A DNA stretch of 64,000 bases from positions 37,435,795 through 37,499,794 of the forward strand of contig NC_092670.1 of the NCBI RefSeq assembly GCF_964355755.1. The letters are read 5' to 3'. This document shows, piece by piece, positions 25,839-56,800 of the stretch; the first letter of the stretch is position 1; every line of letters begins with the position of its first letter. Both the position numbers and the translations under genes were made by a program. The notes beneath the pieces were generated by a model. The model did not search any database and was not told where the DNA came from. It worked only from the letters and a program-made list of their open reading frames with translations. This DNA is from Antedon mediterranea. Taxonomy: Eukaryota > Echinodermata > Crinoidea > Comatulida > Antedonidae.

Positions 25839-26960
25839 AATTTGACTGACAAAAAAAGACAGACATGACAAGAAGAACAAAAAAAGTCACGACTTTAAAA
25901 ACGTCTGTACGACTAATTCAAGCGGAGCACTCGCGTCTCAAGTATATACGACTGATTGTTGCTGATTGAACTGATTCAGACGGTGTGCCGAGAAAAAAAA
26001 AATGATTAGCAAAAGAGTACGACTGACCAGACAAAATCAAGGACCTGAAGTATTTGACCCACCATTGTGTCTGACCGTCAAAGTCTGCTGGACTTTTGAC
26101 AATGCTGTAACTGACTGCATTGGCCCCTCTGGTTCAGGACAAGCATCTGGAAACTTATGTCACTCCGATTGTGATTGACCAAGACCTTCGATTCTTACAT
26201 ATTGGAGTATGACGCATATGGGAATGTTTTTTCCCATGATTGACAGACCCTACATTCCAGGAGACCAACCTTATTACGGTGTTTCTGACTTTCTACATAC
26301 TGTATATTCAAAATATATTAATGTATACAGTAGTGCCAGAATGACGTAGGCTCTTCTCCAGACATACATTAGTACCAGTATGACATAGCCTCTTCTACAG
26401 ACGCACAGTAGTGCCAGAATGACGTAGGCTCTTCTCCAGACATACATTAGTACCAGTATGACATAGCCTCTTCTACAGACGCACAGTAGTGCCAGAATGA
26501 CGTAGGCTCTTCTCCAGACATACATTAGTACCAGTATGACAAAGCCTCTTCTACAGACGCACTATGACGTAGGCTCTTCTCCAGACATATATTAGTACAG
26601 TACGGTACCAGTATGACATACGCTCTAATCCAGACATACAGTAGTGCCAGAATGACTGGCTCTACTCCAGGATTGTTTTCACGAATACGAATTGAAGTAC
26701 TGTAATGACTTGACTATATCCAGCATCAAGATGTTGGTACTGTCACAATTCGACGGCCCATGTTGACTTCTTGTGTAAAGTGAAAATGCGACTGACAACG
26801 ACGCAATCTTCCAACTGACATAACCTAAGGATATGTACTAAATGTAAGGAAGAAATTATCTGGCACAATATTTAAAAATAATTTTAAAAATTTTATTTGT
26901 ACGCACATGCTTTTAATTTTCTGCCTCATTTTTATTGTGAATAAAAATAATGCACTGGCT
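25839..26960 (+). other. RBM45: Presumed RBM45 3' UTR exon
   Basis: The acceptor TTGTACTACAG ends at 25838 and pairs with the donor just after the RBM45 stop (25111). A poly(A) signal AATAAA lies at 26940. No coding capacity. It contains the 78-bp minisatellite. Inferred from splice signals only. Confidence 0.4.
26326..26672. repeat. 78-bp minisatellite (two 39-bp half-units)
   Basis: GCCAGAATGACGTAGGCTC recurs at 26335, 26413 and 26491 (period 78), then degenerates to about 26672. Each unit is itself two related 39-mers: one with GTGCCAGAATGACGTAGGC, the other with GTACCAGTATGACATAGCC. Confidence 0.92.
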
Positions 26961-30800: not shown

Positions 30801-33800
30801 TGAACTTAACATAAGATATGGTAAGCACACAATAATCTTGCAAACAAACTATACATACATACATAAATACAATAAATATATTCAATATTCGCCTTAAAGC
30901 AAATTTACACAGACGAGCGGTAATGGTAGAATCTGAATCTCTTATCAGAAACCACCTACACACCACCTCTGCACTTTATGTATATGGTCATAAGGAATAA
31001 AATAGATTCTATATTTTCATTTCTGTTACCATTCATACGTGTAACACCATTGCAAGTTGTAAAGCTGAGCTCTGCCTACGCTATAACATTTTATGTGACA
31101 AAAAGAGCGTGATATGCCCAAATATGGTAATGATAATAATAACAATGTCCATATATGGGCACATCACACTTTTTTGTCAAACTAGTTTGTTGTAATGTAC
31201 CTTAATAGATGCAAGATGCAATGGTGTTTCTCCTTTCTTGTTTCTCTTAAGGTAATCTACTGCCATAGATTTTTTTCCACTTTGTCCTTCAAGCGAAGAT
31301 CTCTTTCTTGTATTTGATGGCCGATCTTGATCCAACGAGGATTGCTTTTTAGCTTTTGAAGATACACTTCTATAGAGTGAAGATATTGTTTTCATTTTTT
31401 TGTCTTCAGATTTATTCTTCCCATTCAGTGTTGATTTCTCAAGTGACAATCGACTACGCGGCTCGTCTTTTGGTGTTGTTTGTTTGTTACCTTTCTCCTG
31501 CAATGAACTCATTCTTTCACAATGTGTTTGATCACCCTCTTGTGATGATCGTTTTCTTTTAGAAGCATCTCTTTTTTCAAAGATTGGTGAAATCTTTTGC
31601 AAATGGTCACCTCCATTAACCTCTCTTGGTTCAGAATTTTCAACAGTAGGATTTGTTTCTCCTTGCCACATGTCACTTGTAGGCCCATGAGGCTGTTCAT
31701 TGCAGGTCTTTTTTTCTTTAACATTAGCGGTTCTTTCACTTTTATGTCTTAAACCCATATCTGATTTAGTGACACTCTCATCTACTTTCCTCATTCTTAC
31801 ATCAGAATGCTTTTGCTGCGTTGGTGATGTTTTTCTAGGACTGGTGTTGTCACCATCAATACAATTAGGAACACTGTCAAATTTATCAACAGTTTCATTA
31901 CTTTCTGACATCTCAACTGTCATTTCACTACAACTAGCATTTAAAATCAATCTATCGTCATCACCTTTTGATTGTGAATCAACTGATTTATTAATTAAAT
32001 TTAGCTCATCTTCTAAACAACTAAAAGACACTTTTCTTTTCATAAATCTTTTTTTTATTCTCCTGCCTTTGTTACTTTTTAAATCTTGCAAAGGAATTTT
32101 ATCCCATTCAGCATTACAACTATCGATCCTCTTTTTTCTCATTTCAGCAGACATTGAGTGTTTTTTGAATGGAGGGCAGTAGTCATCAGGTGTACTGTCA
32201 GATGTCAATACCGTAGTAGTCAAGAAGCTACTAATCTGTTTCTTCTGTTTACCAAGGTTCTCTTTAAGGAATGCAGTATCTCTTGGACAACGAGGTCTTC
32301 TTGGTATGTTCCTCTTTGTTTTCTTGCTGGTATTCTTTCTCCATGGCGGAATGTACTTTGCTCCTTTTCGTCTATTCGTTTTCTGTTTCACCTCCTCAAC
32401 ATCATTTTCAGATGTGGTAGATTTATCTTCACATGTATCTTGATCAGTTGACATTTCGCTGTCCATCTCTCTTGCCTGTAAATCCGTCCTACAGGTATCT
32501 AAACATTTTTCAAGTTCTTCAATTTCACTATGTTCTAATGGTGATTTTGAATCCGATTCTAGTTCAGAGTCATGTAAATCATCTATGGAATTTTCTGTGG
32601 AAACATTGTATTGTAACAAGTTAATATTGTCATTATTACAACAATTACGTGATTGTACAGTATTACTACACATTACACACATTTAAATTATACTTTAATG
32701 TAATTAATAAGTTTGAATGTATAATACTAATTTTAGATTCTTTGTTGTAAAAAATACAAATCAGCTATAGCTATTGTAAGGAGGAAATTGAATTTATGTA
32801 CTCAGTTAATAGATAATAAAAGCAATTAGCAAAAACAGAACTGACCTGTATCTGTAATACCTTGGACACTTGTAGGACACAGCTTGACCAGTCGTTGCAA
32901 ACGCTGATACATTTGTACGACAACAGTGAGTTCACGACTGGGTAAGAGGTCTTTCACCCATGCTGGCGAGTCACATTCCGGACAGCTATTCTCAAGGTGG
33001 TTTATAATACAATACCTGAAAGAGATTAAAATAGATTTTTTTTTTAAAGACTAGATTGATATTTCTCAAAAAAATATCAAACATCAACTTAAACAGGTAT
33101 TGTTTTTTAATTTTCAAAACTGGAAATATATATCAAGTATAAAATAATAGATTTATTAACTACAATTTAAAATAAACCAAATACAGAACCAGTAAATCAA
33201 TTACATACACTACAGTATTTCTTATTTTTATTGCCAAGAAAAACATTTTCCCAATGTCCTTTCTTGTTCTATAATCATTATCTCCGCAATCAATTTCTGC
33301 AAGTGACAGAACTTAACTTAAAGATGTATTGAAGATAAATTTAAAAAGACTTTGAATTAGGTTATTTTGTAGTTTACAAAAAAGTTATTCACTTCCTTCC
33401 GTATAAAAAAAATAAAGTTTCCACTTATAAATTTGACTATTTTTTGTTTTAATTAATTACAGTTTTTTCAGGTAAGCAATTTTTTGTCCATCCAATTTTT
33501 GGTTAAAGTGAATAACTATTATGTGACATTAAAATGGCATACTGTATTCAACAAAATAATTTTAAGGGACAATATATCTTTAAGGCAATCATAGAGATAT
33601 TGTAAATATCTCTATGATGTAATCCTGAAAAAATATACACACTATGCTATTCTGGCAATTTAATTTTGTCTGACTGACTATTTAAAACTAATTCACAGGG
33701 GACTATTGAACTAGTTTAACATGAGGGCCTAGTGCTGTGTCTAATCAATATTGTCATATCACTAAAGCCCCTTTCTCACAGAGCTGTGTGCCAGGAATAT

Positions 33801-50800: not shown

Positions 50801-53800
50801 GTTGAAATAAATTAATAAAATCCTTCCTTAAAGAAGTAGACTTCATTTGAGAGTCTGACACTTGAAGAGTTGACCATGGAATACTGTATTATCTGTCAAT
50901 GTGTTTAGTGTTTATGTAATCTTAAACATGTCCAGAATACATCTGAACATGCTCAATAGGATCTTTTACATCCTGTATGATTAAACGTTAAAGATCCAAT
51001 TACCTACAATAATATGACTTTATGGTAAAGTTGGTTTTGTAATGATTACACAAAATTATGATTTTTAAGTGCTAATTATATAGTATAGTAAACCACAAAT
51101 TGTTGTTGATTTTGCCATCTTGACCACCAATGACACACGGTCTTTATAGAGTAAAATAGTGGTTACTGTTGCTGCAGTACCAGCTGGAACTGAGATTTGT
51201 TCAGCTGAAAAGTACAGAAGGCTAGCAGATGTCTGGGCTCATTGTACTCTTCACAGTATTACCACCAGTAACATAACACAGATGTACCCCCAATTGTGAC
51301 CCACCCTAACGTCCTACCATAAACCATGGATCCATGCATAAACCCATCAACCTTGTGAAGTATCTTCAACGTGTCAATGTGTAGATAACATGAATGTTTG
51401 TCTAAAAGCTCTGTGTACAGTATCAAACTAGTTTGACAAAAAAAAGTGTGATGTGCCCAGATATGGTAGTAATATGCCCAAATATTGTAGTGATATGACA
51501 TCATCATGTCCATATATGGGCACATCACATTTTGTTGTCACATAAAGTTTGATAGTGTAGACAGGGCTTAATATTTTTAATTTGCATTATTGTATGTCAT
51601 GTACTGTATAAAACCCAAATTTGGTGGTGGTGGCCCCTTCCTCTAATACCAGTAATTTCCAATTTTCTGAATAAACAACATTACTGTATTTGTTGTGTTT
51701 ATACTATTATTATAGTAGAGACAACTATTTTTTAATTTACTTTATAAATTGAAACCAAAAGAGTATGGATTACTGTAGTTTCTTAATCATTTAATTTATT
51801 TAATGGATGTTTTATTGAGTAACGACATTAAAGAATATTTAATTTAATTATTAACCACTTCTAACTACTTTTCTAAGTTATAACATTCTTTATTTCATTT
51901 TCTAAAGTAATAGTATACCACTACAGTAAATCAACTACAGTATGTACTGTACTTTAGTCCAGTCAATCCAGCAAATATAAGGGGGTGACCCACCACTAAT
52001 TGCAAAAGAATTTATTTCACTGCAGTGCATTTCAGCATGGCTCCCTAATCAACATACTAAAAGTCCCCAAAAATCTAAGCATGGGAAATTTGCTAATTTG
52101 CATAATATGCAAATTAGCTTCCGCCATTAGAAAAAAATCAAAATATTGCCATAACTTTGAATTGGACTGTCCAATTGAAACAATTTAAGTGTTCAAAGGT
52201 ATGTTGTCATGGTCAGTGAATAAGATAAACATACTTTTAAATTAATTATTTGATTCTAATTTGCATAATATGCAAATTAGTTATTGAAATTGTGTAAAAC
52301 AGATCAGAATTATGCTAAAACTTTAGTTTGGATGGTCTGATTTAAACAATTAAATGTTCAGAAGTATTAATGACCAATTACCATGATAGCCATACTTTTA
52401 TTTCAATTCAGTATAATGCATATAATTTACATAATATGCAAATTAGCTCATAAATAGAAGTACCTTTATTCTGGGTATAAACATTAGACTGGAAGCACCT
52501 AACTAAATAAGCAAGAAGTACCGACCGGTAAGGTTTTGGCAGAAAATATAAATGAACTAGAAGTCATATATCAGAAAGTCAGCAAAAGTATTCATAATAT
52601 ATAAACAAGACAGTCATACCCTTAATCAAATTACAGTTTATGAATATTTACAAAATATGCAAATTACCAATAGACTGGATACACAAATACACAACAAACA
52701 AGTGGGGTTTTCCTAGATTGGGACTCATTGCCACTTTTACACCAGAAAAATGTCTACATAAACCTGTACCTAGAATGTCAGTTACAACATCATCAAAGTA
52801 GGCAGGATTAACATCAAAACTTTCAAATCCCAGCACACAGGACTTCAATCAATGGAAGTGTATGATTCAACGTATCATGTTGATCTTCTGTGGGACGTGG
52901 TATTTGCTCTTCGCCCCAAAATGCCTGGGTGGTCAGGTCTAATGCAGGCCGTAAATCATGGTAATTATCCTGGAAAATCATTGATGCGATTCCTGCTCAT
53001 GATAGATTTAAATCCATCTGACATGTCATGTATCTTCTCCACACTCTCGTATGTTTGTGAACAAGCTAAGGCATACAATGTCACACTCGTTATTACATTT
53101 GATCAGACAACCACTTTGGTGGAAAGCCATGATGATCATCGAATCAGAGCCAGATTGCAGTTATCTGAAGTCTATTGTCCTGAGACTAGGGGGCTTACAT
53201 ATGGAAATGAGCTTCTTGGGCTGCATTGGTTATATTATGGCAGGAAGTGGTTTACAAGTGATCAGTAGCATATGCAGGAAATGCCGTCAAGCATATGCTG
53301 AGTGGAAAAGCAATCTCCAGAGCAGTCCGAGGACATCTCTTGGTTGATGCTGCCTTACATACCATATTACTAGCTAATGCATATAATCTTCCTATATCCC
53401 CTTTTCAACCTGATCAACTACAACACAATCGAGACACGGAAACAACCTGTGAGAACGATCAAACAACAGAACATTCAGAAGAAATGGAAATAGAAGTTGA
53501 TGGTGACATTATTCCAAACACACGGCCAGATCAAGATTTGCTCGAAGCCAGTAAGATTTTGGATAATCTACTAAATGATCCCGACGCTCATATTGACCTT
53601 TCCTCTTCAGATGTCCTTACAAGAATTACTCATAGATTGAAAGACGAGCGGAACTTACTTAGTGATAAAAGGACTGCCCAACTCTGGTTGCAATATTTGG
53701 ACATGGTTGCTGTTTTAAAAAAATTCATAAAAGCTGAACGTGAGAATTGGACTTTACATCTTTCAGCAGTAAAGGATATGTTACCTTTTTCTGCTGCGGC

Positions 53801-56800
53801 TGGGCATAACCTGTACACAAAATCTGCGTATCTGTACTTGCAAAAAATGTACCAACTCGAAAAGACTCACCCCAATGTCTACACCAACTTCATAAATGGT
53901 TTTCATGTGATTAGAAGAAGTGATCGGTACTGGGCAGGACTATCTACCGATCTTATTATTGAGCAAGTCCTAATGAGAAGTGTCAAAACAAGTGGTGGGT
54001 TAACGAGAGGTAGAGGCATGACAGAAGTTCATCGGTTGACCTGGGTACTGGGAATGCCTTCTTGTGCCGAGGTAAACTTTGCAATGCAAGAGCTCACCAG
54101 TGTTAACTACAACACTAGGGAGCAACACAAAGACACATCACAATCTCGTCAAAAAAGAGACACAGAAGATACTTATAAACTAATCGAAGCATTCAAGGAG
54201 TGGGATCCATTTGGTAGTGAGTCATCACTGCGTAGCATAGTAAGTGGTGTTGCTGCTACTGACAATGTAAATGTTGACCAGGCAAGGTCTGTGGGCCAGC
54301 GTATACTTGAATCGATGGTTGGAAAGAACATTGATGAGTTCTCTTTCCAAAGAAAAAAAAACAAGCAGTCACACTTGGATCCAAAACAGCTGTTGTCATT
54401 TGCGGAGATCCAGTCCAAGTTGATCCACAATTACTCTTTCAGCGATTAAGTGTTATCGCAACACATGAAGAGGTGGGAGATCCCGCAAATTTATTTAAAT
54501 ATGAATTTTGCAGTCATCCAACTGCATTATTCGATAATGTTGGGCTTCCAAGGGAGGCAAATAAGGCGACACTAGCCGATGCCCTTTGGGAGATTGTAAA
54601 GCAGGATCAGACAGACCCCCCCCCCCCTCCCCTTAATGATCCACATTATGTGCTTGATTGTGGTGCCCTCTTGCAACGTTTATCATGGTCAAGAGGTCAA
54701 ACATTTGACACTATTTGTCATAAATATGTATCATATGTGACAAGTCGGTATGGAATTCCAACTATTGTATTTGATGGTTATGAAGATGGACCTGCAAGAT
54801 GCTACATGTGAGTTTTACTGCTTAGTTTGATTGAATTGCAGCATTTTATGCACATTTATAAAGAAAATAGATTAATTCATCATGAAAAAAGGCTAATTTG
54901 CATATTATGCAAATTAGACAAATTTCCAATGTTGGGATTTTGGGGGACTTTTAGTATAGTGTTTAGGGGACCATACTAAAATGTATTGTAGTAAAAAAAA
55001 TTCTTTTGCAATTAGTGGTGGGTGAAGGTACTATTTTGACTGGACTATTCCTGAGACCACGGAACTGAAACTCACAGACTTATTCTTCACTCCATGCTCA
55101 GACCTGAGCATAAATCAACTACAGTATGTACTGTACTTCCTGAGACCAGGGAACTGAAACTCACAGACTTATTCTTCACTCCATGCTCAGACCTGAGCAT
55201 AAATCAACTACAGTATGTACTGTACTTCCTGAGACCAGGGAACTGAAACTCACAGACTTATTCTTCACTCCATGCTCAGACCTGAGCATAAATCAACTAC
55301 AGTATGTACTGTACTTCCTGAGACCAGGGAACTGAAACTCACAGACTTATTCTTCACTCCATGCTTAGACCTGAGCATAAATCAACTACAGTATGTACTG
55401 TACTTCCTGAGACCAGGGAACTGAAACTCACAGACTTATTCTTCACTCCATGCTCAGACCTGAGCATAGATCAACTACAGTATGTACTGTACTTCCTGAG
55501 ACCAGGGAACTGAAACTCGCAGACTTATTCTTCACTCCATGCTCAGACCTGAGCATAAATCAACTACAGTATGTACTGTACTTCCTGAGACCAGGGAACT
55601 GAAACTCACAGACTTATTCTTCACTCCATGCTCAGACCTGAGCATAAATCAACTACAGTATGTACTGTACTTCCTGAGACCAGGGAACTGAAACTCACAG
55701 ACTTATTCTTCACTCCATGCTCAGACCTGAGCATTGTCCATATTTCCCCCCCCCCCCCCCACTGTATGTTTGAATGGCAAACCAACTGAGCTGTGAAAAC
55801 AATGCACAGTGCTACCATTTGAATACAATCATTCAGACACCAACTCTTTATGTTGTTACTATAACCATGGAGAAATCCTAACTGATTTCTCCATGCCATA
55901 ACTGACTTAAATCTACTTATCATACTTTAACAGTGGGAAGTAACACAGCAAAGGAATATACTTTTTGTAACTATCTGGTGAAGCAGGCAACATCAAAGTA
56001 TGGTATTTCAAAGAGAATTTGGTGTTCGCACGTGGCATCTATCCGGTGTATATTTCTGGTGTTCGCACGTGGCATCTATCCGGTGTATATTTCTGGTGTT
56101 CGCACGTGGCATCTATCCGTTGTATATTTCTGGTGTTCGCACGTGGCATCTATCCGGTGTATATTTCTGGTGTTCACACGTGGCATCTATCCGGTGTATA
56201 TTTCTGGTGTTCGCACGTGGCATCTATCCGGTGTATATTTCTGGTGTTCAGACGTGGCATCTATCCGGTGTATATTTCTGTTACTTTTGTTTTGAATGCT
56301 ATTTTCACAATACTTGGTGTCTATTGTGCTTAAGTTAAAGTTACTAGGGAAGAGAAAGAGATGGAATTTTAAAATAGTTTAGAATTAATAAACTTTAATT
56401 ATATGAATAGACTTTGTTGAAAGTTTAACTTAAAAAAGATTAAATAAAAGAAAAAGTATAAAGTAGAAAAGAAGAAGAAGAAAGTAAAAAAGTATTTGGA
56501 AAACATTTCAATATAATTCAGCATTAATCGATTTTGCTGGCCGTATGAAATGCATGGAATGAATGTTTTATTAAGTCATTAATATAATATTTTTAGTGGC
56601 TTTGTTAAGTAGTTTGAACTGAACTATTAGTAAAACACAAATAGAAAAGGAAAATTCAAGTTATCAAACATTTATTGTAGTATAAAATAATATATTCAAT
56701 CATAAATTAATATAAATTTTGATTATTTTTTTTATAAGTCATAAAATAAATACTAACTGTAAGCACATGATTATGATGAGATATTAGATTTGGATTGGCA

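Follow-up and report, generated by a model that had tools for sequence, protein, structure and literature searches.

Structure and target site of the element

Within the 64,000-nucleotide stretch of Antedon mediterranea DNA that was analysed (the window), positions 51955-55047 on the plus strand hold a 3093-bp element with terminal inverted repeats (TIRs), internally deleted and non-autonomous, whose termini are common base for base to eight further copies in the genome. It is a genuine TIR element with exact edges. The left TIR (51955-52120, plus strand) starts TAGTCCAGTCAA and the right TIR (54891-55047, minus strand) terminates TTGACTGGACTA, these being the outer 12-mers of the two repeats. 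The TIRs of about 160 bp described in an earlier reading of the letters alone (the sequence-only reading) were recovered by a repeat finder as two overlapping blocks, the first with arms of 126 nt at 51967-52092 and 54919-55044 (79% complementary) and the second at 52065-52118 and 54892-54945, the blocks being 79-81% complementary and spanning about 160 bp in total. The subterminal repeats of that reading are real as well: the repeat finder located five copies of CTAATTTGCATAATATGCAAATTAG, namely palindromic repeats at 52093-52117 and 52256-52280, a third repeat at 52422-52446 (92%), one starting at 52643 (76%) and a palindromic copy at the right end at 54893-54917 (96%). This repeat is a putative transposase binding site.

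The element is flanked by TT on either side (51953-51954 on the left and 55048-55049 on the right), where the other copies carry 3 bp. The empty site GTACTTCCTGAG was read from adjoining 89-bp repeats, whereas the occupied one reads GTACTT-element-TTCCTGAG, from which it follows that the window copy either bears a 3-bp target-site duplication (TSD) minus one base or made a TSD of 2 bp. A minisatellite with an 89-bp unit (7.7 copies) occupies window positions 55048-55734, and a DNA search of the genome returned no other location for this unit. A further 28 nt of this unit precede the element on its left (51927-51954), which places the element within the array or at its margin. Other minisatellites of the window lie at 56020-56280 and 26325-26562 (37-bp unit, seven times; 39/78-bp unit), and a charged-residue-rich open frame of 501 aa with no Pfam match lies at 31177-32682 on the minus strand.

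Coding remnants of the window copy

The coding region that the sequence-only reading placed between the TIRs is real but broken, consisting of four frameshifted ORF fragments in differing frames, all on the plus strand. The first (52774-53106) is a transposase fragment equivalent to residues ~298-408 of L053, a relative from the same genome; it includes the codon of the second catalytic-type D (TFDQ, 53101-53103), while the first-D region is absent. The second (53108-53263), a transposase fragment in another frame, corresponds to L053 residues ~407-459. The third (53262-54446) is an open frame of 395 aa that continues the transposase; in it, codon 53961-53963 specifies the E of DLIIEQ, the third of the catalytic-type residues. 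The fourth (54338-54808) comprises a linker and the start of an XPG/FEN1-like nuclease, with the D of VLDCGALL at codon 54656-54658 and the D of IVFDGY at codon 54773-54775, the remainder of the nuclease and a CXC tail having been deleted. Alignment with eight other copies shows two losses: 135 bp close to where the coding part begins, and 1396 bp extending from mid-nuclease as far as the gene's 3' end. The window fragments alone gave no match in Pfam, and the window copy by itself is an ordinary dead derivative.

Copies of the window family in the genome

The left 246 bp of the element were searched against the whole genome (354 Mb) and were found, at 98-100% identity, in 10 places counting that of the window itself. 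With the genome search that had been proposed as a check, at least ten other copies of the family came to light, 98.6-99.9% identical where compared. The inverted right end follows 4.4-11.9 kb from the left end in the checked copies, as against 3.1 kb in the window copy. Eight copies excised for comparison (L009-L016, 4425-4615 bp) all start TAGTCCAGTCAAT and finish TTGACTGGACTA, the same bases as in the window copy, with identities of 98.6-99.9% either to that copy or among themselves. Exact 3-bp TSDs flank all nine other copies that were checked (TAG, CGA, TAG, ATA, TTC, TAA, AGT, AAA and TAT, the last belonging to the ninth copy, L026, at G000:C4:32160488-32172355); the target duplication judged probable in the sequence-only reading is thus borne out at exactly 3 bp in the other copies, the window copy itself showing only TT/TT.

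In the 4.4-4.6-kb copies the protein starts at L053 residue 260-298, past the first catalytic-type residue, D251. The window copy and these eight are non-autonomous, being frameshifted and devoid of the N-terminus and the first D. The only copy of the window family found with the first-D region is L026, matched from L053 residue 149, which carries one in-frame stop and is interrupted by other DNA. This copy is nearly full-length, with 11.9 kb between its TIRs, and a retroelement-like ORF, located upstream of its transposase portion, belongs to the DNA that apparently interrupts it. No intact member of the window family was found. From 99%-identical copies that lack the first D we infer movement by a transposase made elsewhere.

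Divergent full-length relatives

Searching the protein against its own genome returned more than 100 matches, several of which lie in one uninterrupted frame each (1147-1524 aa), and divergent relatives were found whose full protein of 1171-1360 aa is encoded in a single frame. L053 has TIRs of 707 bp at 98% identity, termini TAGTCC...GGACTA, the TSD CAA and an ORF of 1247 aa; L054 has a 1171-aa ORF between inverted repeats, and the TIRs of L055 and L056 measure 161 and 316 bp. L057 and L058 are one 7.7-kb element at two loci, 99.97% identical, with termini TAGGCCATCGGG and the TSDs CCA and ACA respectively, and this pair marks a very recent transposition. Their family, diverged from that of the window, has a 1247-aa ORF and clean 3-bp TSDs. 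Intact copies with TIRs around the full ORF, the form in which the sequence-only reading expected its proposal to be confirmed, were found among the divergent relatives (L053, L057/L058) but not in the window family. Around L059 no TIRs were seen in the 8 kb examined. Inverted pairs of related TIRs (73-81% identity), 3-3.4 kb apart, occur at G000:C5:2572438-2575501 and C8:22444673-22448092 and represent additional related families; fragments of the transposase-nuclease protein lie between the two C8 repeats. No relatives were found in viral and prokaryote contigs.

The occurrence of the same protein within the TIRs of several divergent families makes it a part of the mobile element and not a chance passenger, as the sequence-only reading had held on the strength of the TIRs. 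That a TIR element captured a gene of the host on a single occasion, either a FEN1/asteroid-like gene or an orphan gene of invertebrates, is a possibility that reading had itself raised against its proposal, and it might be entertained because XPG domains occur in host proteins too and host-like XPG_I genes were found in this genome. Those genes are, however, separate loci, and the fused protein, present in more than 100 places, is enclosed by different TIRs in several families with 22-54% identity, which leaves the probability of a single capture close to nil.

Architecture of the encoded protein

As read from its motifs, the protein is predicted to have three parts: a DDE-like core, an XPG/Rad2 nuclease and a CXC-type cysteine tail. 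The motif pattern of the core is DNxD...FDxxx...DxxxEQ, and DNxD, FD (YD in L066), GxFH and DxxxE are kept across seven diverged proteins, with 22-54% identity to L053 where measured. D251, D406 and E648 (L053 numbering), invariant in seven of the seven proteins that cover them, are the obvious candidates for the DDE set. Pfam DUF6589 matched L057 at 28.3 bits, only just above the gathering cut-off (residues 290-582 to model 59-358), and L066 at 33.0 bits, also above the cut-off; in both proteins the match covers the stretch from the second D to the E, and since the L057 match ends at residue 582 and model position 358, E582 closes it. A PDB search with the DDE-region profile and an NCBIfam search each gave no match.

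The nuclease follows the transposase core in the same protein. A 240-aa profile of it (A2) was searched against PDB, where Exonuclease 1 alone matched significantly (five sequences, best E 0.002), with an alignment spanning FDG, the AD motif, D-x-D and GCD..S; the match to XPG_I was weak (E 0.04). The acidic positions D, D, AD, DTD and GCD are kept in all members covering them. The C-terminal tail is cysteine-rich and CXC-like (TCR, E 0.009). An XPG_I family search of the genome returned host-like genes only and missed the element copies, because the domain of the element is too diverged. Profile searches, suggested as a check along with the guess of a PIN-like nuclease, hence bear that guess out: the domain belongs to the PIN superfamily (XPG/FEN1-like), and the same round of searches brought up DUF6589 in two relatives.

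The further suggestion of that reading, a new superfamily that lacks a DDE domain and has the PIN/XPG nuclease as its transposase, draws on the presence of the XPG-like nuclease and on the window family having no match to any transposase profile. It is nonetheless very improbable in view of a 400-residue upstream block with an invariant D, D and E and the DUF6589 match in relatives, of exact 3-bp TSDs, which denote staggered integration of the DDE type, and of an architecture and TSD that agree with the description of AcademX. A nuclease in place of DDE catalysis is accordingly not what was found; by its conserved motifs, the predicted nuclease is added to a DDE transposase and does not substitute for one.

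Proposed mechanism of transposition

By analogy with DDE transposases and Rad2/XPG nucleases, an autonomous element would produce one protein of ~1,200 aa with an N-terminal part, a DDE core, an XPG/FEN1-like nuclease and a CXC zinc tail. The RNase-H-like DDE core would bind the TIRs and the subterminal palindromes, the likely binding sites, and would excise the element and join its ends to target DNA at positions staggered by 3 bp, being the likely strand-transfer enzyme; the 3-bp duplications show that integration is staggered. During excision or integration, the nuclease would most likely act on gaps or on the ends of the transposon, where it would trim or cleave DNA that is branched or flapped. 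The 4.6-kb copies, all without the first D, would be mobilised in trans by a full-length relative. These catalytic roles, and the order of the steps, are put forward as a model.

Comparison with known transposon systems

The window element is, with a probability of roughly 0.87, a non-autonomous, broken copy of a DNA transposon of the AcademX type, as judged from architecture and TSD length set against the published description. The AcademX lineage of the Academ superfamily is reportedly defined in a paper by Kojima from 2020, and its nuclease is XPG-type. To our knowledge it is the only lineage that combines a 3-bp TSD, a transposase and a nuclease. The combination of a transposase, an XPG-type nuclease and a 3-bp TSD therefore directs the assignment to AcademX and away from the new transposon group of the sequence-only reading. 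In published work, TSDs of AcademX measure 3 or 4 bp and those of AcademH 9 or 10, tied to the encoded nuclease and helicase (PMC10045372); a RecQ helicase is recorded in Academ (PMC3627910), and curated bivalve Academ elements have a mean of 5.6 kb (PMC10294476). Our literature search returned no paper joining XPG with Academ and none for DUF6589.

With AcademX as described, the element shares TIRs, the 3-bp TSD and a predicted DDD/E-type transposase accompanied by a nuclease; on the points compared no difference was found, the window copy being a deletion derivative. The TSD is 3 bp in nine of the nine other copies and in L053, L057 and L058 (2 bp in the window copy); TIRs measure about 160 bp in the window and 161-707 bp in L053, L055 and L056; and an XPG nuclease follows the transposase, as indicated by the Exonuclease 1 match of profile A2 (E 0.002) and the retained acids. 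A match to a known transposase superfamily, which the sequence-only reading had named as grounds against its own proposal, is thus present in substance, through the AcademX description and not through direct comparison with reference sequences. That same reliance on description, together with the weak DUF6589 matches (28-33 bits), leaves some room for an Academ-related DDE lineage that has an XPG nuclease yet is separate from AcademX; this is improbable, as the properties checked (TSD length, nuclease with transposase) agree with AcademX, the only lineage known to have such a combination. Decidedly improbable is a version in which such a separate lineage would use its XPG nuclease for one of the strand cleavages at the element's ends, so that its loss would alter TSD length. 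For the AcademX-type assignment, the implication is that one genome holds well-populated, recently active AcademX-like families with single-frame full-length ORFs, TIRs and TSDs.

AcademH shares with the element a related DDE region through the weak match to Pfam DUF6589, which presumably represents the Academ core; it differs in having a RecQ-type helicase, no nuclease and TSDs of 9-10 bp, as opposed to the nuclease and 3 bp here. No helicase match was obtained in L053, L054, L055, L057 or L059. Elsewhere in the genome, L063 (G000:C5:20781200-20789200) contains a DUF6589 ORF (73 bits) and, ~0.75 kb from it on the opposite strand, a DEAD/Helicase_C gene, the arrangement expected of AcademH, and it is therefore a candidate and likely an AcademH element; a second copy lies on C9 at 99%, and the ends of the L063 element are interrupted by other repeats. 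Its DUF6589 match runs from residue 21 to 326 (model 156-410), and the E of DLDVEH, residue 274, falls at the model position of the L057 E by simple offset rather than by alignment. The DDE profile gave an hhalign probability of 0.8% and no hmmsearch match against this ORF, and the link of the DDE core to it, drawn through the Pfam model, is weak. With AcademX-like families and a candidate AcademH in one genome, the role of the XPG nuclease or the helicase in Academ transposition would become testable.

Exonuclease 1, FEN1 and XPG (Rad2) have the nuclease domain and acidic positions in common with the element protein, and unlike it they are host repair enzymes without a transposase fusion. KolobokE, KolobokD and KolobokP (PMC9587614) likewise pair a DDE transposase with an accessory nuclease; their nucleases have other folds and their TSD is the 4-bp TTAA, whereas the TSDs observed here are TAG, CGA, ATA, TTC and others.
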